Position numbers and translations under genes: made by a program
The notes under the pieces: model-generated
Databases searched by the model: none
What the model was told of the DNA's origin: nothing
Seen by the model: the letters and a program-made list of their open reading frames with translations, nothing else
Assembly: GCF_000559085.1 (NCBI RefSeq)
Contig: NZ_JALN02000001.1
Span: 1,550,001 to 1,614,000, forward strand
Direction of reading: 5' to 3'
Source: Mycolicibacterium aromaticivorans JS19b1 = JCM 16368
GTDB taxonomy: Bacteria > Actinomycetota > Actinomycetes > Mycobacteriales > Mycobacteriaceae
Length of the DNA stretch: 64,000 nt
Shown here: positions 31,988-39,993 of the stretch, piece after piece
Layout: each line of letters begins with the position of its first letter
Position numbering within the stretch: position 1 is the stretch's first letter

Positions 31988-34624
31988 GTGGATCGATCTG
32001 CGAATAATAGAGACGTGGACACCGTGCAGCCGCCGCGCGTGACGTCCGGCGGCGACCCGCCGCCGGACACGTCGTCCGAGAGCGACTCGCAGCCCGCCTC
32101 CTGGAGCCCCCGGCCGAAGCGAGGCGAGTTGCGCATCTACCTCGGCGCCGCGCCGGGCGTGGGCAAGACGTTCGCGATGCTCGGCGAGGCGCATCGCCGT
32201 CTGGAGCGCGGCACAGATCTGGTGGCCGCCGTGGTCGAGACGCACGGCCGGAAGAAGACGGCTGACCTGCTCAGTGGCATCGAGGTCATCGCCCCCCGCT
32301 ACATCGACTATCGGGGCACCAGCTTCCCTGAACTCGACGTGCCTGCCGTGCTGGCCCGCAAGCCGCAGGTCGTGCTCGTCGACGAACTGGCCCACACCAA
32401 CACACCCGGCAGCAAGAACCCCAAACGCTGGCAGGACGTCGAAGAGCTGCTCGAGGCCGGCATCGCGGTGATCTCGACGGTCAATGTCCAACACCTGGAG
32501 AGCCTCAACGACGTTGTCGCACAGATCACCGGCATCGAGCAGCAGGAGACGGTGCCCGACGAGATAGTCCGCAGCGCCGCACAGATCGAATTGGTCGACA
32601 TCACTCCAGAGGCGCTGCGGCGCAGGCTTTCTCATGGCAATGTCTATGCCCCGGAGAAGGTCGACGCGGCGCTGTCGAATTACTTCCGCCGGGGGAATCT
32701 GACCGCGCTTCGAGAGCTTGCGCTGCTCTGGCTGGCCGACCAGGTGGACGCCGCACTGGCCAAGTATCGCGCCGACAACAAGATCACCGCGACCTGGGAA
32801 GCCCGTGAACGCGTCGTCGTCGCCGTCACCGGTGGCGCGGAGTCGGAAACGTTGGTGCGCCGGGCATCTCGGATCGCATCGAAGGCCAGCGCCGAACTGA
32901 TGGTCGTGCACGTGGCGCGCGGTGACGGGCTGTCCGGGGTGTCGGCGCCGCAGATGGGGAAAGTCCGGGAGCTGGCCGCCAGCGTGGGCGCCACCGTCCA
33001 CACCGTCGTCGGCGACGACGTGGGCAAGGCTCTGTTGGACTTCGCCCGCGAGATGAACGCCACCCAGCTGGTGATCGGCACATCACGACGGTCCCGGTGG
33101 GCCCGTGTGTTCGACGAAGGCATCGGCGCGGCGATCGTCCAGGACTCCGGCAAGATCGACGTGCACATGGTGACCCATGAGGAGGCCAAGCGGGGCTTCT
33201 CGGTGCGGGCGGCGTCGCCGCGCGAACGCCGGGTGATCTCCTGGCTGGCCGCCGTCATCGTGCCGTCGGTCATCTGCGCGCTGACCGCACTGTTCCTCGA
33301 CAAGTACCTGACCATCGGCGGCGAGAGCGCGCTGTTCGTGGTCGGCGTGCTGATCGTCGCCCTGCTCGGCGGGGTGGCGCCAGCGGTGCTCTCGGCCATG
33401 CTGTCCGGTCTGCTGCTCAACTACTTCCTGACCGAACCGCGATACACGTTCACGATCGCCGAACCCGACGCCGCGATCACCGAACTCGTGCTGTTGATGC
33501 TGGCGGTCGCCGTTGCCGTCCTGGTCGACCGTGCGGCCAGCCGCCAACGTGAGGCCAGGCACGCCTCCCAGGAGGCCGAGCTGCTGACCCTGTTCGCCGG
33601 CTCGGTGCTGCGCGGCGCGGACCTGGCGACGCTGCTCGAACGGGTGAGGGAAACCTACTCGCAGCGGGCAGTGAGCATCTTGCGGGTTCGCGGTGAAGAC
33701 GAACAGATCGTCGCGTGTGTCGGCAAGGACCCCTGCGTGACAGTCGATTCCGCCGACACCGCGATCGAGGTCGGGGACGACGAGTTCTGGATGCTGATGT
33801 CCGGGCGCAGCCTGCCCGCCCGCGACCGACGGGTACTGACCGCCGTCGCCAAGCAGGCCGCCGGGCTGGTCCGCCAGCGCGAACTCACCGAGGAAGCCAG
33901 CAAGGCCGAGGCGATCGAGAAGGCCGACGAACTGCGCCGCTCGCTGCTGTCGGCGGTCAGCCACGACCTGCGCACCCCGCTGGCCGGGGCCAAGGCCGCG
34001 GTGTCGAGCCTGCGCTCCGACGACATCGGCTTCTCCGAGGAGGACACCGCGGAACTGCTTGCCACCGTCGAGGAGTCGGTGGACCAGCTGACCGCACTGG
34101 TGGACAACCTGCTCGATTCGTCCCGGCTGGCCGCCGGGGTGGTGCGTCCCGAACTCAAGCGGGTGTATCTCGAAGAAGTGGTACAGCGCGCGCTTCTGAG
34201 CATCGGCCGAGGCTCGACAGGGTTCGGCGCCAGAGGCCTTGACCGGGTGAAGGTCGATGTCGGAGACGCGGTGGCGCTGGCCGATGCCGGACTATTGGAG
34301 CGTGTGCTGGCGAACCTGGTCGACAACGCGCTGCGGTACGCCCCCGAATCCACCGTGCGGATCAACGCCGGCCGAGTCGGGGACCGCATGCTGATCAACA
34401 TCGTCGACGAGGGCCCCGGCGTGCCCCGCGGCACCGAGGAGCAGCTGTTCGAACCGTTCCAGCGCCTCGGCGATCGGAACAACAAATACGGTGTCGGACT
34501 GGGCCTTTCGGTTGCCCGCGGATTCGTCGAGGCGATGGGCGGAACGATATCGGCCACCGATACCCCGGGCGGTGGCCTTACCGTGATCGTCGACCTGGCC
34601 GCACCGCCGGGAGGGCGGCTGTGA
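31988..34624 (+). CDS. kdpD: KdpD, K+-responsive sensor histidine kinase
   Basis: Senses K+ limitation and phosphorylates KdpE. 878 residues from GTG at 31988 (GTG at 32015 is an alternative). An N-terminal KdpD domain with Walker motif GAAPGVGKT and VDELAHTNTPGSKNPKRWQD; a USP-like domain (about 275-400); four membrane helices (about 415-515); a GAF-like region; and a kinase core with His659 in SAVSHDLRTPL, the VDNALRYAPES N box, DEGPGVP and GVGLGLSVAR. It overlaps kdpE by GTGA. In M. tuberculosis kdpDE are, as I recall, divergent from kdpFABC; here all are collinear. Confidence 0.95.
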   Translation: MDRSANNRDVDTVQPPRVTSGGDPPPDTSSESDSQPASWSPRPKRGELRIYLGAAPGVGKTFAMLGEAHRRLERGTDLVAAVVETHGRKKTADLLSGIEVIAPRYIDYRGTSFPELDVPAVLARKPQVVLVDELAHTNTPGSKNPKRWQDVEELLEAGIAVISTVNVQHLESLNDVVAQITGIEQQETVPDEIVRSAAQIELVDITPEALRRRLSHGNVYAPEKVDAALSNYFRRGNLTALRELALLWLADQVDAALAKYRADNKITATWEARERVVVAVTGGAESETLVRRASRIASKASAELMVVHVARGDGLSGVSAPQMGKVRELAASVGATVHTVVGDDVGKALLDFAREMNATQLVIGTSRRSRWARVFDEGIGAAIVQDSGKIDVHMVTHEEAKRGFSVRAASPRERRVISWLAAVIVPSVICALTALFLDKYLTIGGESALFVVGVLIVALLGGVAPAVLSAMLSGLLLNYFLTEPRYTFTIAEPDAAITELVLLMLAVAVAVLVDRAASRQREARHASQEAELLTLFAGSVLRGADLATLLERVRETYSQRAVSILRVRGEDEQIVACVGKDPCVTVDSADTAIEVGDDEFWMLMSGRSLPARDRRVLTAVAKQAAGLVRQRELTEEASKAEAIEKADELRRSLLSAVSHDLRTPLAGAKAAVSSLRSDDIGFSEEDTAELLATVEESVDQLTALVDNLLDSSRLAAGVVRPELKRVYLEEVVQRALLSIGRGSTGFGARGLDRVKVDVGDAVALADAGLLERVLANLVDNALRYAPESTVRINAGRVGDRMLINIVDEGPGVPRGTEEQLFEPFQRLGDRNNKYGVGLGLSVARGFVEAMGGTISATDTPGGGLTVIVDLAAPPGGRL

Positions 34625-35307
34625 GCAAGATCAAGGTGCTGGTGATCGACGACGAGCCGCAGATCCTGCGGGCGTTGCGGATCAATCTGAGCGTGCGCGG
34701 CTACGAGGTGATCACCGCCGCCACCGGCGCGGCGGCACTGAAGGCTGCCGCCGAGCAGCGGCCCGATGTGATCGTGCTCGACCTCGGGCTGCCCGATATG
34801 GACGGCATCGAGGTGCTCGGCGGCCTACGCGGCTGGCTCACCGCACCGGTCATCGTGCTGTCGGCCCGCACCGACTCCACGGAAAAGGTGGACGCGCTCG
34901 ACGCCGGCGCCGACGACTACGTGACCAAGCCGTTCGGGATGGACGAGTTCCTGGCCCGGCTGCGCGCGGCGGTGCGCCGGGGCGCGGCGGCGTCCGAGAC
35001 CGACGAGCCGGTGATCGAAACCGATTCGTTCACAGTCGATCTGGCCGCCAAGAAGGTGATCAAGAACGGCGCCGAGATTCACCTGACCCCCACCGAGTGG
35101 GGCATGCTCGAGATGCTGGTGCGCAACCGCGGCAAGCTGGTGGGCCGTGAGGAACTGCTCAAAGAGGTATGGGGCCAGGCGTACGCGAAGGAGACCCATT
35201 ATCTGCGGGTGTACCTGGCGCAGCTGCGCCGCAAGCTAGAGGACGACCCGTCACATCCGCGGCACCTGCTGACCGAAGCGGGAATGGGCTACCGGTTCGA
35301 GCAGTGA
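34621..35307 (+). CDS. kdpE: KdpE, response regulator
   Basis: OmpR/PhoB-type activator of the kdp operon. 228 residues: receiver with phosphoacceptor Asp54 (VLDLGLPDMDG), conserved LSART and VTKPFGMDEFL; winged-helix domain (about 130-228) with LTPTEWGMLEMLVRNRGKLV and GMGYRFEQ. GTG at 34621 overlaps the kdpD stop. Confidence 0.95.
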   Translation: MSKIKVLVIDDEPQILRALRINLSVRGYEVITAATGAAALKAAAEQRPDVIVLDLGLPDMDGIEVLGGLRGWLTAPVIVLSARTDSTEKVDALDAGADDYVTKPFGMDEFLARLRAAVRRGAAASETDEPVIETDSFTVDLAAKKVIKNGAEIHLTPTEWGMLEMLVRNRGKLVGREELLKEVWGQAYAKETHYLRVYLAQLRRKLEDDPSHPRHLLTEAGMGYRFEQ

Positions 35308-35346: not shown

Positions 35347-35376
35347 CTGACGTACAACTGGGCCGCGAACTAGGGT
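35347..35376 (+). promoter_or_regulatory. Sigma-A-like promoter for the Cys/His-rich peptide gene
   Basis: CTGACG (35347-35352), an 18-bp spacer and TAGGGT (35371-35376). The predicted start near 35383 gives a leader of about 26 nt containing AAGGAG (35393-35398), 10 nt before the ATG at 35409. Confidence 0.5.
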
Positions 35377-35408
35377 GAGCACCATCCGGGCGAAGGAGAT
35401 GATCTGCC

Positions 35409-35513
35409 ATGAACGAGCCCAAACATACCGGTGGCTGCACCTGTCGCTGTAATGCCTGCGACGGCGGCCATCACTGTCACAACATCGGCAGCGGCTGCAA
35501 GGTCAAGCTCTAG
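35409..35513 (+). CDS. 34-residue Cys/His-rich peptide, metallothionein-like
   Basis: ATG at 35409 to TAG at 35511-35513, with its own promoter-like sequence and an AAGGAG ribosome site. Six cysteines (10, 12, 14, 17, 23, 30) and four histidines (6, 21, 22, 24) fall in GGCTCRCNACDGGHHCHN and SGCKVKL. CxCxCxxC followed by HHxH is the kind of ligand set that binds Cu(I) or Zn(II). It does not resemble the mycobacterial metallothionein MymT as I remember it. The gene downstream is on the opposite strand, so this is not one of the Cys-rich leader peptides that regulate a following gene. Placement between kdpE and a winged-helix regulator gives no direct clue. Confidence 0.65.
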   Translation: MNEPKHTGGCTCRCNACDGGHHCHNIGSGCKVKL

Positions 35514-35521
35514 CTTCCGCG

Positions 35522-35848
35522 CTACCGGTCGTAGAGCGACGTCCAGACCGAAAATCTCGACAGCAGGTCGACGACGGCACGCCCGCGGGCCGTGTAGTCA
35601 TATGGTTCGTCGAGCGAGCCCATGCTGTCGCGGCTGCCGGGTGTGCCGCCGGCCACCAATCCGGTGACCACCAGGTCCCGCAATGCCGGAACAAGATCCC
35701 ACCGCGCCCCGGGGAGCGCGGACCGCATCTGTTCGAGTGTCATCGGTCCGGCCGCCAGCGCGTCGAGCACCTCGACCAGATAGCGGCGGCTGACGAGCTC
35801 ACGCAAGTGCTCTCTGCTACCCCATCGGTCCAGACCACAATCGGACAT
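35522..35848 (-). CDS. Winged-helix transcriptional regulator, HxlR-like
   Basis: 108 residues. The central RYLVEVLDALAAGPMTLEQMRSALPGARWDLVPALRDLVVTGLV is a helix-turn-helix followed by a wing with DEPYDYTARGRAVVDLLSRF, as in HxlR/MarR-like small regulators. The lone cysteine near the N-terminus (MSDCGLDRW) is at a position used for redox sensing in some HxlR members; that is inference. ATG at 35848 is favoured because TATGTT lies 8 nt upstream on minus; ATG at 35878 is possible. Convergent with the Cys-rich peptide (8-nt gap) and divergent from the KimA-like gene, either of which it may control. Confidence 0.6.
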   Translation of the reverse strand: MSDCGLDRWGSREHLRELVSRRYLVEVLDALAAGPMTLEQMRSALPGARWDLVPALRDLVVTGLVAGGTPGSRDSMGSLDEPYDYTARGRAVVDLLSRFSVWTSLYDR

Positions 35849-35856
35849 AACGCGCC

Positions 35857-35862
35857 AACATA
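35857..35862 (-). promoter_or_regulatory. Leaderless-type -10 (TATGTT) for the winged-helix regulator
   Basis: TATGTT on minus ends 8 nt before the ATG at 35848. Confidence 0.4.
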
Positions 35863-35972
35863 GGTAATCACAGGCCACGACACACTCGCCCTTACGGAAT
35901 TACCCACAGCGCCAACGTCAATCTTTACGAAATCCCTACGGCTCGCGCTGCGCCCCGCGGGCCGGTGGAAAC

Positions 35973-35986: not shown

Positions 35987-38002
35987 GTGTCTTCGCCGAC
36001 GTCGCTGATGAAGCGCTTGGTACTGGGTCGGCCGTTTCGCAGCGACAGCCTCGGTCACACCCTGCTGTCCAAGCGAATCGCGTTACCCGTCTTCGCCAGC
36101 GACCCGTTGTCGTCGGTCGCCTACGCGACCCAGGAAATCCTGCTCATCCTGACCCTCGGGGGCCTCGCCTACATCCACCTGACGCCCTACGTGGGTGCCG
36201 CCGTAGTGGTCCTTCTGGCCGTAGTTGTGCTCTCCTACCGCCAGGTCGTTCGGGCCTACCCCAGTGGAGGTGGGTCCTACGAAGTGGTGTCCAAGAATCT
36301 CGGTCCGCTGGCCGGGCTGGTGGTGGCCGCCGCGCTCTTGGTGGACTACGTGATGACCGTTGCGGTCTCAGTGGCCGCGGGCGTGGACAACATCATCTCA
36401 GCCTTCCCGGATCTCAACGCCTACCGAGTAGGCATCAACATCGGATTTGTCATCCTGCTGACCGCGATGAACCTTCGCGGCGTACGAGAATCCGGTCGAG
36501 CCTTCGCCATTCCGACCTATGCCTTCATCGTGGGCGTCTACCTGATGGTCGGGCTCGGTCTGCTACGCGCCCTGCTGGGACATCCGCCGGTGGCCGAGAG
36601 CGCCGGCTACGGAATACGGGCAGAGCAAGTCGGACTGACCACTGTTGCGCTCATCTTGCTTGTGCTCCGCGCCTTCTCCTCGGGCTGCACCGCGCTGACC
36701 GGCGTCGAGGCCATCTCCAACGGGGTTCCAGCGTTCCGTAAACCCAAGGCGCTCAACGCAGCCCGGACCATGGCCGCAATGGGGTTGCTGGCTGTCACCA
36801 TGTTCGCCGGTGTCACCGTGCTGGCGCTGATCGCCAAGACTCGAGTAGTGGAGAACACCTGCGACCTCGTCGGCTTCCACGGCGACTGCACAACCGAACC
36901 GCAACGCACCGTCATCGCGCAACTTGCGGCCGCCGTGTTCGGCAACAACAGCGTCATGTTCTTTTACATCCAGGCCGCCACAGCACTGATCCTGGTACTC
37001 GCGGCCAACACCGCCTACAACGGATTTCCCCTGCTGGCATCGATTCTCGCCCAGGATCGCTATCTGCCCCGGCAACTTCAGAATCGGGGTGACCGACTGG
37101 CCTACTCCAACGGCATCATCCTGCTCGCCGTCGTCGCAGGCGGACTGATCTACGCCTTCGACGGGTCGGTCACCCGGCTGATCCAGCTGTACATCATGGG
37201 TGTCTTCACGTCGTTCACGCTCTGCCAGGCAGGCATGGTGCGGCACTGGAATTCAGAGCTGAGGCATGCGACCACACCGGCTCTACGCCGAAAGATAAAC
37301 AGCGGCAGAGCAGTCAATGCGTTCGGGGCACTCCTGACCGGCTTGGTGCTCGTGGTGGTCATGATTACGAAGTTCACCCACGGTGCCTATCTCGTGGTCA
37401 TCGCGATCCCCGTGCTATGTGCGCTGATGCACGCCATCCACCGCCACTACGCCTCGGTTCGCGACGAATTGCGGCTCGCTCCCGACGATGAAGCGACCCT
37501 CCCGAGCCGGGTACACGCAGTCGTGCTGGTCTCGGGGTGGAACAAAGCCACTCAGCGCGCGATCCTGTATGCGCGCGCGACCAGGCCCCACACGTTGACC
37601 GCCCTGACCGTGAACATCAACGACGACGACACCCGGGCGCTGCACCGCGAATGGGAAGCCTTGGACATCGACGTACCCCTGAAGGTGGTGGAGTCGCCGT
37701 ACCGCGAGATAACCCGGCCGGTCTTGCAATACGTGAAGCGCGCGCGACAGCGGCCTCGCGATGTGGTGTGCGTGTACATACCGGAAACCGTGGTGGGGCG
37801 ATGGTGGGAAAACCTGTTGCACAACCAAAGCTCACTGCGACTCAAAGCACGCCTGCTGTTCGAACCCGACGTGATGGTGACCAGCGTTCCATACCAACTC
37901 CACACCGCCGCGCGCCGCGACGTCACCAAGGCCGAACACAGCCCCGGCGACGTCCGCAGCGGCGTTGACCGATCGGTGCGCTACGACAGAAACCTCGACT
38001 GA
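35987..38002 (+). CDS. APC-superfamily K+ permease, KimA-like
   Basis: 671 residues: about twelve membrane helices (to about 490) and a cytosolic C-terminal domain. The opening FASDPLSSVAYATQEILLIL, YPSGGGSYEVVSKNLG, ANTAYNGFPLLASILAQDRYLPRQL and NGIILLAVVAG are the signature of the KUP/KimA-type potassium importers (Rv2690c-like in M. tuberculosis). The C-terminal part (VVLVSGWNKATQRAILYARA, VCVYIPETVVGRWWENLLHNQ) matches the soluble domain of this family. It follows the kdp operon, giving a second K+ uptake route of different mechanism. GTG start with a leaderless -10. Confidence 0.82.
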   Translation: MSSPTSLMKRLVLGRPFRSDSLGHTLLSKRIALPVFASDPLSSVAYATQEILLILTLGGLAYIHLTPYVGAAVVVLLAVVVLSYRQVVRAYPSGGGSYEVVSKNLGPLAGLVVAAALLVDYVMTVAVSVAAGVDNIISAFPDLNAYRVGINIGFVILLTAMNLRGVRESGRAFAIPTYAFIVGVYLMVGLGLLRALLGHPPVAESAGYGIRAEQVGLTTVALILLVLRAFSSGCTALTGVEAISNGVPAFRKPKALNAARTMAAMGLLAVTMFAGVTVLALIAKTRVVENTCDLVGFHGDCTTEPQRTVIAQLAAAVFGNNSVMFFYIQAATALILVLAANTAYNGFPLLASILAQDRYLPRQLQNRGDRLAYSNGIILLAVVAGGLIYAFDGSVTRLIQLYIMGVFTSFTLCQAGMVRHWNSELRHATTPALRRKINSGRAVNAFGALLTGLVLVVVMITKFTHGAYLVVIAIPVLCALMHAIHRHYASVRDELRLAPDDEATLPSRVHAVVLVSGWNKATQRAILYARATRPHTLTALTVNINDDDTRALHREWEALDIDVPLKVVESPYREITRPVLQYVKRARQRPRDVVCVYIPETVVGRWWENLLHNQSSLRLKARLLFEPDVMVTSVPYQLHTAARRDVTKAEHSPGDVRSGVDRSVRYDRNLD

Positions 38003-38028
38003 GCGATTGACGGCCCGTATTGACGGGT

Positions 38029-38535
38029 ATGCAGCACCCCATGGAAACGGCCCGTTCGGGCAGGCTGCAGCGGGCGAGGGTAGGCCTGCTGGCGGTACAG
38101 GGAGCCGCGATCCTGGTCGCCGGGGCGTTCGTCGTTGTCGCGATCGCCGGCTTCATTCCCGGTCTGACCACTCATCTGGACCAGCTGCATTGGGCTCATG
38201 GCTCGCGCTCCGAACTGTTCGGTGTCTTCGAGGTGTCGGTGGTGCACAACCTGGTGCACCTGTGCTTCGGTGTGGCCGGCCTGGTGCTGGCGGGCACGTT
38301 CGCCCGAGCGCGGGCGTACCTGATCGGCGGCGGGCTGATCTTCCTCGGTCTCTGGGTCTACGGTCTGCTCATCAACCTGTCTGGTCCGCGAAACATCTTG
38401 CCTATCAACAACGCCGACAACTGGCTTCACTTCGCGATCGGCGTGGTCATGACGCTGCTCGGTGTCACGCTGGCAGGCACCAAGATACCGACCGGGGCCG
38501 ACGGGGAACCGTTGGTGCTGCCCGAGGACGAGTGA
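38029..38535 (+). CDS. DUF4383-family membrane protein
   Basis: 168 residues with four membrane helices (VGLLAVQGAAILVAGAFVVV; NLVHLCFGVAGLVLAGTF; YLIGGGLIFLGLWVYGLLI; WLHFAIGVVMTLLGVTLAG). HNLVHLCFGVAGL and INNADNWLHFAIGVVM are typical of DUF4383, whose function is unknown. ATG at 38029; a TTG at 38020 is the alternative. It ends 8 nt before the 3' end of the convergent ppx. Confidence 0.75.
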   Translation: MQHPMETARSGRLQRARVGLLAVQGAAILVAGAFVVVAIAGFIPGLTTHLDQLHWAHGSRSELFGVFEVSVVHNLVHLCFGVAGLVLAGTFARARAYLIGGGLIFLGLWVYGLLINLSGPRNILPINNADNWLHFAIGVVMTLLGVTLAGTKIPTGADGEPLVLPEDE

Positions 38536-38542
38536 GAGACGC

Positions 38543-39511
38543 TCAGGCCAGGGACAGCGCGATCCCGTCGAGGATGTCGTGCTCGCTGACCACCAACTCG
38601 TCGATCCCCGCCCGCTGACCGAGCGCATAGGCGAGTTCCTCCACGACAATCGAACCACCGCCGATGACGTCGACGCGACCCTCGTGCATAGGACCGAGCG
38701 CGGCACGCTGCTTACGGGTCATCCCGACGAGTTGTTCGCACACCGCCAGCAAGTCCGGAAACCCGATCCGCGACAGGTGAATCGCAGCGGGATCGTACGT
38801 CGTCATCCGTTGGGCCAGCGCGGCGATCGTGGTGAACGTCCCCGCCACCCCCACCCAGGTCTTGGCCTGGTCCACGGGTACCGCACGCAGAGCCTCGCCG
38901 AGACGTTCCCGCACCACCTCGCGGGCAGCGGCGATCTCGGTCGCGGTCGGCGGATCGGAGTGCAGGCAGCGTTCGGTCAGCCGCACGCATCCGATGTCGG
39001 CGGAGAAGCTGGCCTGCACGCCGCCGTCACGGACCCCGCTGCCCACCACCACCTCGGTCGAACCGCCGCCGAGGTCAACAACCACGAACGGCACTGCGGC
39101 GTGAGCGAGTTCGCCCACCGCGCCGTTGAACGACAGCTCGGCTTCCTCGTGCCCGCTGATCACCTCGGCGATCGCACCGGACACGACCGGGTCCAACACT
39201 TCGGCCGTCATCGCGAAGAACACGTCACGATTGGCCGCATCCCGAGTCGCCGACGTCGCCACCATCCGCACCTTGCCGACGTCGAACTGCTTGAGCAGCG
39301 CGGCGTAGTCGACCAGCGCGGCATGTGTGCGGGCCAGTGCTTCAGGGACGAATTGCCCTGTGGCGTCGACACCTTCGCCCAGCCGCACGATGCGCATCTC
39401 CCGGTGCACATCGTGCAGGCGCCCCCCGGCCAGATCTGCGATCAGCAGCCGGATCGAGTTGGTGCCGCAGTCGATGGCCGCAACCCGGTTCGTCTCTACG
39501 ATGATGTCCAC
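38543..39511 (-). CDS. ppx: Ppx/GppA exopolyphosphatase-family phosphatase
   Basis: Acts on polyphosphate and/or pppGpp in the stringent response. 322 residues from GTG at 39511, which overlaps the DUF501 gene by 16 bp; the upstream GAGGA supports this start. ASKHA-fold motifs: AIDCGTNSIRLLIAD (phosphate 1), ATSATRDAANRD, VVDLGGGSTEVVVG (phosphate 2) and VIGGGSIVVEEL. It corresponds to Rv1026 by order. Short Ppx proteins of this type have only the N-terminal two-domain core. Confidence 0.9.
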   Translation of the reverse strand: MDIIVETNRVAAIDCGTNSIRLLIADLAGGRLHDVHREMRIVRLGEGVDATGQFVPEALARTHAALVDYAALLKQFDVGKVRMVATSATRDAANRDVFFAMTAEVLDPVVSGAIAEVISGHEEAELSFNGAVGELAHAAVPFVVVDLGGGSTEVVVGSGVRDGGVQASFSADIGCVRLTERCLHSDPPTATEIAAAREVVRERLGEALRAVPVDQAKTWVGVAGTFTTIAALAQRMTTYDPAAIHLSRIGFPDLLAVCEQLVGMTRKQRAALGPMHEGRVDVIGGGSIVVEELAYALGQRAGIDELVVSEHDILDGIALSLA

Positions 39512-39993
39512 TCCTCGTTGTCCAGGATTCCCGCCATCCCCGGCTCGACGGCCAGCACGGCCAACGCCTCGTCGCCAAATGGGTTGATGCCCCTGCCTTT
39601 CGCCAATGAATGCGCGATCACCACGTGCAGACACTTGACCCGATCGGGCATGCCACCGCCGGTGAAAGTGGTGCCCAGCGGCTCGATCGCGTCACGCTCG
39701 GCCAGGTACGACTCGTGAGCCCGCCGATAGGCCGCGGCCAGGTCCGGGTCCTGGGCCAACCGCTCACTCATACCGCGCATGAGCCCGTCGGACTCCAGGC
39801 GGCTCGCCGCTGCGGTCAGCACCGGATGGGTCAGGTAGTACAGCGTCGGGAACGGAGTACCGTCCGGCAGGCGGGGGGCGGTCTTGACCACGGCCGGTTC
39901 ACCGTTCGGGCAGCGATAGGCGATCTCCAGTACGCCGCGCGGCTCGCGCCCGAGCTGTCGCGCCACCGCGTCGAGATCGGCGGGATCAACCAC
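39496..39993 (-). CDS. DUF501 protein (Rv1025-like)
   Basis: 165 residues, soluble. Conserved blocks: RGVLEIAYRCPNGEPAVVKTAPRLPDGTPFPTLYYLTHP (positions about 19-57, shown by its ends RGVLEIAYRCPNG and FPTLYYLTHP) and GMPDRVKCLHVVIAHSLAKG, near NPFGDEAL. The family is unassigned but almost always lies between the ftsB/divIC-like gene and ppx in actinobacteria, as here. GTG at 39993 overlaps the upstream gene by 8 bp. Catalytic function is not known. Confidence 0.85.
   Translation of the reverse strand: MVDPADLDAVARQLGREPRGVLEIAYRCPNGEPAVVKTAPRLPDGTPFPTLYYLTHPVLTAAASRLESDGLMRGMSERLAQDPDLAAAYRRAHESYLAERDAIEPLGTTFTGGGMPDRVKCLHVVIAHSLAKGRGINPFGDEALAVLAVEPGMAGILDNEEWTSS

Follow-up and report, generated by a model that had tools for sequence, protein, structure and literature searches.

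We report that a small open reading frame in Mycolicibacterium aromaticivorans JS19b1 (genome of 6.3 Mb) is, judged by comparative sequence evidence, a conserved coding gene under selection. The frame lies on the plus strand at positions 35409-35513 of the 64,000-nucleotide stretch of DNA that was analyzed, which is called the window in the following, and it encodes a microprotein of 34 amino acids rich in Cys and His. The peptide is one branch of a genus-wide family of paralogs and not an isolated peptide. We favor the reading that the gene stands alone and that its product, which is small and probably cytosolic, binds metal and acts much like a minimal metallothionein.

Results

A Cys/His-rich microprotein and its family

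The gene starts with an ATG at 35409 and ends with a TAG at 35511-35513. Its product has the sequence MNEPKHTGGCTCRCNACDGGHHCHNIGSGCKVKL, with Cys at positions 10, 12, 14, 17, 23 and 30 and His at positions 6, 21, 22 and 24. The initial annotation of this DNA had described a frame with six Cys and four His in a CxCxCxxC plus HHxH arrangement, and all of these features are present. The first four Cys occupy codons 10-17 (CTCRCNAC, i.e. C-x-C-x-C-x2-C; 35436-35459), codons 21-24 encode HHCH (35469-35480), and codon 30 (35496-35498) encodes the last Cys; all are on the plus strand. Inspection by eye revealed neither a Sec-type signal sequence nor a transmembrane segment in the window peptide. An identical peptide is encoded by Mycolicibacterium sphagni ATCC 33027 (L093), Mycolicibacterium sp. 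P1-5 (L092) and Mycobacterium sp. BK086 (L094).

Among the checks proposed in the initial annotation were a homolog search and a codon-substitution test, and both came out in favor of a gene. A search with the single sequence found matches at E≤0.01 in 118 of the 297 genomes of the genus (105 of the 275 genomes of good quality), the own genome counted. A profile built from 18 relatives raised this to 122 of 297 (109 of 275) at E≤0.001, the own genome again counted; in the other 175 of the 297 sampled genomes the profile detected no copy. Within samples of the family (201 genomes), the order (200 genomes) and the class (296 genomes), the profile matches were confined to one of 31, one of 60 and one of 114 genera and to 8, 12 and 11 genomes, respectively, with the own genome counted each time; a rare relative outside the genus could be missed, because at most 25-37 candidates were scored per genome. 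A match in Smaragdicoccus (L129) was rejected as a sign of a wider range, being a chance frame within a 258-residue open frame and devoid of the Cys pattern. Another locus, titled Bifidobacterium breve (L112), carries a mycobacterial-type ppx that is 74% identical to that of the window, and it probably stems from a mislabelled metagenome bin. No relatives were found on plasmids, phages or viral contigs, where the viral scan comprised two 7-residue patterns only.

We read 90 of the 125 single-sequence matches (L002-L091, the window's own locus included). All 90 contain C-x-C-x-C-x2-C, His-Cys, Asn25 and the final Cys, and the gap between Cys17 and His22 measures four residues in 89 of them and three in one. 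These loci were found by similarity and not by the pattern, which was loosened once; a tighter version had missed 28 loci. Twenty further loci, mostly weaker and including the weakest profile matches, were then compared. Fourteen of them fit the full pattern; the remaining six retain, as judged by reading, the six Cys and the His while the rest is broken, and five of these are without Asn25. The family's own core pattern (C-x-C-x-C-x2-C, 3-4 residues, His-Cys, final Cys), with its first four Cys, is present in 90/90 and 20/20 loci. Six Cys and one His are constant in all 110 loci read, with His22 and Cys23 adjoining each other throughout, and Asn25 is found in 105 of them. Outside these residues the chain drifts, and the termini vary. 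The initial annotation had regarded non-conservation of the Cys and His positions as grounds against the gene. The six Cys and His22 dispel this concern; the other His of the window peptide are not among the constant residues.

By eye the family falls into three groups. Type A includes the window peptide (...HCHNIGSGCKVKL), type B reads ...HHCGNPPNCNARR, and a third group consists of longer paralogs, which bear basic or polar N-terminal arms (e.g. ...GCRCHCGTCSGGGHCHNIAAGCAVRR).

Family libraries did not recognize the protein. The window peptide matched no family in Pfam or NCBIfam at E≤1, while seven relatives returned only FeoB_associated from Pfam at E≤10 (E values of 2.4 and 8.2) and nothing from NCBIfam. 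A search of PHROGs at E≤1 with the window peptide and the seven relatives gave one match, which lies in an N-terminal arm (E=0.84). When the profile was run against about 5.8 billion proteins, 57 of 94 candidates were relatives, none with a Pfam domain. Few of them carry a name; they are labelled hypothetical or uncharacterised and once, in Mycobacterium hodleri (P0046), 'calcium-binding protein', a label that nothing in the present analysis supports. No relative of solved structure was found by sequence, apart from one chance match at E=1.8. Among the results listed for searches of an open-access library we recognized no description of the family, which is weak evidence of absence.

Evidence for selection on the coding sequence

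A high Cys content is in itself unremarkable: of the 300 open reading frames of 25-60 amino acids in the window, seven have at least six Cys, and Cys richness was therefore dropped as proof of a gene. This count is what could be said for a mere chance frame. The idea of a chance frame is contradicted by the dN/dS values, by the conservation of the frame and by the matches in 118 of the 297 genomes, and its probability is negligible. It is conservation, not Cys content, that identifies a real gene.

The codon test was applied to the core from Cys10 to Cys30 and used pairwise averages with no tree. For the type A core, with 42 distinct DNA sequences, pS was 0.478 and pN 0.125, which gives a dN/dS of 0.18; the type B core, with 37 distinct sequences, gave 0.082. 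A strict subset of type A with the ending HHC[HR]NIGSGC (26 sequences) yielded 0.018, a value that is biased low because the subset was picked by its amino-acid ending. Selection seems weaker in an A-like HC[KR]N subset of 16 sequences, with a dN/dS of 0.357. Third codon positions account for 17 of the 20 variable columns in the strict subset (p=2.8e-6) and for 20 of 38 in all 42 type A sequences (p=0.011). The synonymous excess is gone in the forward frames +1 and +2 and in two of the reverse frames (0 and 2). Part of it persists in reverse frame 1, where third positions are paired with each other, but stops interrupt this frame in 23 of the 42 type A and in 21 of the 37 type B sequences. We infer that the gene is transcribed and translated.

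Constant ligands and a structure model

Seven constant potential ligands are found within about 21 residues of an otherwise drifting chain, and for this reason a metal site is the likeliest reading of the microprotein. A structure model was calculated from 80 family members. It has a mean pLDDT of 73.5 and a pTM of 0.36, with residues 11-30 at 80-83, and its secondary structure is limited to one four-residue helix (15-18). It matched no solved fold. Since the model contains no metal, it neither supports nor opposes metal binding.

The same residues could serve a structural zinc microprotein, in which one or two Zn ions shape a small knuckle for contact with a protein or nucleic acid; the metal would then be scaffold and not cargo. 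Asn25, kept in 105 of 110 loci, is more than a pure buffer needs, and the C-terminal tail is basic (KVKL or NVRR). Furthermore, C-x2-C-x4-H resembles the start of a CCHC zinc knuckle, which has the form C-x2-C-x4-H-x4-C. The microprotein, however, reads C14-x2-C17-x4-H22-x7-C30, which departs from that form, and it has no Pfam match. Variable termini, the failure to match a solved fold and the lack of a constant downstream neighbor (see below) also speak against a scaffold, and we consider it unlikely.

Promoter, upstream element and hairpin

The initial annotation had predicted a CTGACG-N18-TAGGGT promoter and an AAGGAG ribosome site. Both are present on the plus strand: the -35 element CTGACG at 35347-35352, the -10 element TAGGGT 18 nt past it at 35371-35376, and AAGGAG at 35393-35398, 10 nt 5' of the ATG. 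The -10 element ends 32 nt before the ATG. This promoter did not come up in a strict sigma-70 scan. The -10 form recurs upstream of the relatives, there mostly as TATCGT, TATGGT or TATTGT. The pattern TA[TG][TCG]GT, which was defined post hoc from these data, matches 63 of the 74 distinct upstream regions versus 7.4% of Markov-shuffled controls. CTGACA or CTGACG stands at the matching place in several relatives; -35 and -10 occur together in 15 of the 74 regions, the window included, versus 0.2% of controls. By eye, AAGGAG or GAGGAG precedes most relatives.

For the following comparisons the 13 paralog loci were removed from L002-L091, which leaves 77 loci of the window's kind. A further element, [TC]ATATGTTGAT[AG], follows the -10 in exact form in 25 of the 77 loci and is found nowhere else in the same 631,184 strand-bases. 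It belongs mainly to type B (20 of 37 loci, compared with 4 of 24 in type A and 1 of 16 in the rest). Loci with the element upstream of the peptide include L041, L060, L091, L114 and L115, and its fullest form, the near-palindrome TATCGGCATATGTTGATA, is that of L114. The exact element suggests regulated expression in the species that carry it. It is absent from the window's promoter, in which no operator was recognized. When up to two mismatches were allowed, the palindromic form gave 16 distinct sites in 9 of 12 chosen genomes, versus 6 sites for the reversed control; four of the 16 lie upstream of the peptide and none is in the window genome. Because the other 12 sites lie elsewhere, the element is not shown to be private to the peptide gene. 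With a promoter of its own and no recognized operator, the gene in the window species may, at a guess, be expressed constantly.

Of 76 distinct downstream regions, 30 have a strong hairpin of -28 kcal/mol or below 3' of the stop, versus 5 of 380 Markov controls, and one of these hairpins is followed by T7 (L030). These hairpins fit a single-gene unit in the relatives. The window gene has no strong 3' hairpin (-17.5 kcal/mol), and its 5' region shows no structure beyond that of shuffled sequences (z 0.76).

A variable interval between kdpE and ppx

The microprotein gene starts 101 nt after the end of a kdpE response regulator gene (34621-35307, plus strand; the KdpE model scores below its curated cut-off), which is the upstream boundary of a conserved interval. 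The downstream boundary is a Ppx/GppA gene (38543-39634, minus strand; PF02541, E=1.1e-72). Between the two the window contains, 8 nt past the microprotein stop, a convergent ORF of 118 amino acids for a winged-helix-like protein (35522-35878, minus strand; HxlR with E=0.023, below cut-off), then a gene for an APC-family, KimA-type potassium transporter of 671 amino acids (35987-38002; 6s3k, E=2.4e-126) and one for a DUF4383 membrane protein called by the Pfam scan (38020-38535, plus strand). The KimA-type transporter next to kdpDE places two potassium systems side by side. The winged-helix-like ORF is present, together with the KimA gene, in 5 of the loci L002-L031 with the own locus counted (L003, L004, L007, L011 and L022).

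At 50 of the 77 loci ppx lies inside the fetched stretch of 1.7-5 kb. The window's copy belongs to the set that is mostly sited between kdpE and ppx, and the paralogs are found elsewhere. The cargo of the interval varies. Some loci have only DUF4383 there, and others share the window's combination of a KimA-like gene and the HxlR-like ORF; elsewhere the interval contains an NmtR/P1B-ATPase pair or a gene that by eye resembles an acyl-CoA synthetase gene. Counts of the next gene were made with a purpose-made gene caller, which can miss or misplace small genes. By these counts 47 of the 77 loci have a co-directional next gene, which is DUF4383 in 30 and ZIP-like in 11; in the other 30 loci, the window included, it is convergent. 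DUF4383 is hence the commonest gene after the peptide in the relatives, and it sometimes occurs in two tandem copies (L009, L012 and L072).

These arrangements bear on the view that the peptide is a leader or attenuator for the next gene. Cys-rich upstream ORFs (uORFs) are known in mycobacteria, as a section of PMC4633059 describes; co-directional neighbors prevail with 47 of 77 loci, DUF4383 being the neighbor in 30, and the hairpins 3' of the stop in 30 of 76 regions are attenuator-like. Against this, the next gene differs from locus to locus and is convergent in 30 of 77, which makes the peptide an unlikely leader for any one fixed gene. Furthermore, the amino acids of the microprotein are kept across differing contexts, the 5' region in the window folds no better than shuffles, and the uORFs described in that section of PMC4633059 are leaderless, while the microprotein has a leader and a ribosome site. 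We rate a leader function as very improbable. The initial annotation had excluded it outright on the grounds of the opposite next gene; the convergent neighbor is real and recurs, but with 47 co-directional loci the verdict softens from excluded to unlikely.

The neighbors scanned in the window were KdpC, KdpD, KdpE, the HxlR-like ORF, the KimA-like transporter, DUF4383 and Ppx. These also bear on the possibility of a metal-chelating RiPP precursor with Cys that, like those of bufferins, would be targets of an MNIO-type enzyme. Small Cys-rich copper-binding RiPPs do exist, according to an excerpt of PMC12452194, but the bufferins described there have Sec signals and sit with MNIO genes. Neither an MNIO gene among the scanned neighbors nor, by eye, a Sec signal was seen here, which makes a RiPP precursor a distant prospect.

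The stand-alone status of the microprotein gene is well supported, at the level of sequence, by the promoter element, the ribosome site, purifying selection and the varying next genes.

Metal genes beside some relatives

Of the 297 genomes, 78 have an NmtR match at E≤1e-20, and in 18 the distance between a relative of NmtR (2lkp, E=2.7e-46) and the peptide is no more than 1 kb. Twelve of the 18 were read with their flanks (L045, L047-L050, L052-L054, L058, L061, L062 and L069). All twelve peptides are of type B, and in all twelve loci, which make up 12 of the 37 type-B-like loci, a heavy-metal P1B-ATPase is divergent from NmtR on its other side. The 18 genomes are probably those of related species and reflect one ancestral event. 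The window genome carries its own NmtR-ATPase pair elsewhere (L162). In M. septicum (L115) a P1B-ATPase (minus strand) comes first and is followed by the NmtR-like repressor, the peptide and the ZIP-like membrane protein; the ATPase scores above cut-off for TIGR01525 and TIGR01512, with 7qbz as best solved relative. The NmtR of M. tuberculosis is a sensor of Ni(II)/Co(II) that regulates an efflux ATPase of the P-type, as stated in part of PMC7055735. The type B clade beside a sensor and a pump points to a divalent metal of the Zn/Co/Ni class for these putative metal-binding proteins.

The ZIP-like membrane protein after type B reached only E=0.015, which is below cut-off, had no family at E≤1e-5 and has no meaningful solved relative; the label of a zinc transporter was weakened to ZIP-like. 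The intergenic regions between nmtR and the ATPase gene (L047-L053, L144, L145 and others) contain a conserved repeat like ATACAT-N12-ATGTAT, which is a candidate NmtR operator. The element upstream of the peptide differs from this repeat; NmtR is thus probably not the regulator of the peptide, and regulation through that element was not supported.

Other paralogs have other neighbors. Those ending in CRASHW directly follow a gene for a formylglycine-generating enzyme in four of four loci (L172, L174, L175 and L177), called by PF03781 with E 2.1e-77 for the L175 gene and by eye for the other three; near relatives ending in CRAQHW and CRAAHW (L089 and L176) do not follow such a gene. A HAD-type gene precedes the enzyme gene in the CRASHW loci. 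Since part of PMC6698867 proposes that the formylglycine-generating enzyme uses Cu(I), this group points to Cu(I) instead as the presumed ion. Two weak relatives adjoin a MoeA gene (L171 by scan, L166 by eye). One paralog (L071, 1118-2045) lies near an ArsR-like regulator with 40% identity to NmtR; the locus also has a glyoxalase-fold-like ORF and by eye resembles an arsenic locus. Further paralogs adjoin genes with no evident metal link.

Several observations weigh against the metal reading. None of the neighbors scanned around the window's own copy is a metal gene. NmtR lies within 1 kb in only 18 of the 78 genomes that have it, the ZIP-like call is weak, the structure model reaches only intermediate confidence and resembles no solved fold, and no copy was detected in 175 of the 297 genomes. 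A thiol or redox peptide, which might work in a disulfide relay, as a persulfide or mycothiol partner or as an Fe-S carrier, would likewise be rich in Cys, and the initial annotation had named this alternative. An invariant His among the Cys and the sensor/pump clade favor metal over it, however, and the neighborhoods showed no constant redox gene; we regard a redox role as rather unlikely. The initial annotation's stand-alone metal-binding or redox peptide has thus fared unevenly: selection, the -10 and ribosome sites and the convergent next gene in 30 of 77 loci bear out a stand-alone gene, while the metal part is the likeliest reading of the ligands kept in 110/110 loci and of one sensor/pump clade.

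Discussion

We propose that the six Cys thiolates and the invariant His22 would coordinate one or two metal ions of soft or borderline character, assisted in the window copy by the neighboring His residues. Candidate ions are those of the Zn(II)/Co(II)/Ni(II) class or Cu(I). The microprotein, presumably expressed from its own promoter in the window species and presumably cytosolic, would then buffer metal or hand it to a pump or enzyme. A bolder and rather doubtful extension is that these ligand-only microproteins were copied throughout the genus beside different metal users, such as the Ni/Co sensor-pump pair, the formylglycine-generating enzyme and MoeA. They might be miniature metallochaperones, each dedicated to the loading or unloading of one partner, with the copy between kdpE and ppx as the founding, general-purpose one.

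Mycobacterial metal biology gains a conserved family, detected in 122 of 297 genomes, for which the libraries searched hold no model. The case illustrates how curated family libraries can miss a microprotein that is under selection, and its kind is easily overlooked by genome annotation. If the proteins bind metal, their natural variants in different metal contexts offer a test of what determines metal choice, and 34 residues are few enough for direct synthesis and titration.

The family can be compared with several known systems. Like the Cys-rich uORFs of mycobacteria, the microprotein is short, rich in Cys and missed by annotation. The uORFs are leaderless and located upstream of annotated genes in the section of PMC4633059 cited above; the microprotein, in contrast, is leadered, with a ribosome site and a -10 that ends 32 nt before the ATG, and in 30 of 77 loci it is followed by a convergent gene. 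At the window locus the next gene is not co-directional, and the predicted promoter and ribosome site do not fit a leaderless start. PacL1 is a small mycobacterial metal-binding protein that works as a chaperone-like partner of a P1B-ATPase, the zinc pump CtpC. It has a transmembrane domain and glutamine/alanine repeats, as described in part of PMC9374683; by eye the window peptide has neither.

In size, Cys content and genus the microprotein resembles MymT, the Cu(I) metallothionein of pathogenic mycobacteria. MymT is longer and copper-regulated. A parallel in arrangement is found with SmtA and BmtA, which are also tiny and rich in Cys and His. In Synechococcus SmtA adjoins an ArsR-family repressor, and some type B copies adjoin NmtR. 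SmtA has about 9 Cys in 56 amino acids, more than the 6 Cys in 34 of the microprotein. PF02069 is the bacterial metallothionein family of SmtA and BmtA, with about 9 Cys plus His that bind 3-4 Zn; the window peptide matched no Pfam family at E≤1 and the seven relatives matched no metallothionein at E≤10. With no profile match and too few Cys, the microprotein cannot be filed in the known bacterial metallothionein family. SmtA holds four Zn, as given in an excerpt of PMC10612145, compared with the one or two ions proposed here. If it does bind metal, the microprotein would probably be among the smallest bacterial metallothionein-like proteins.
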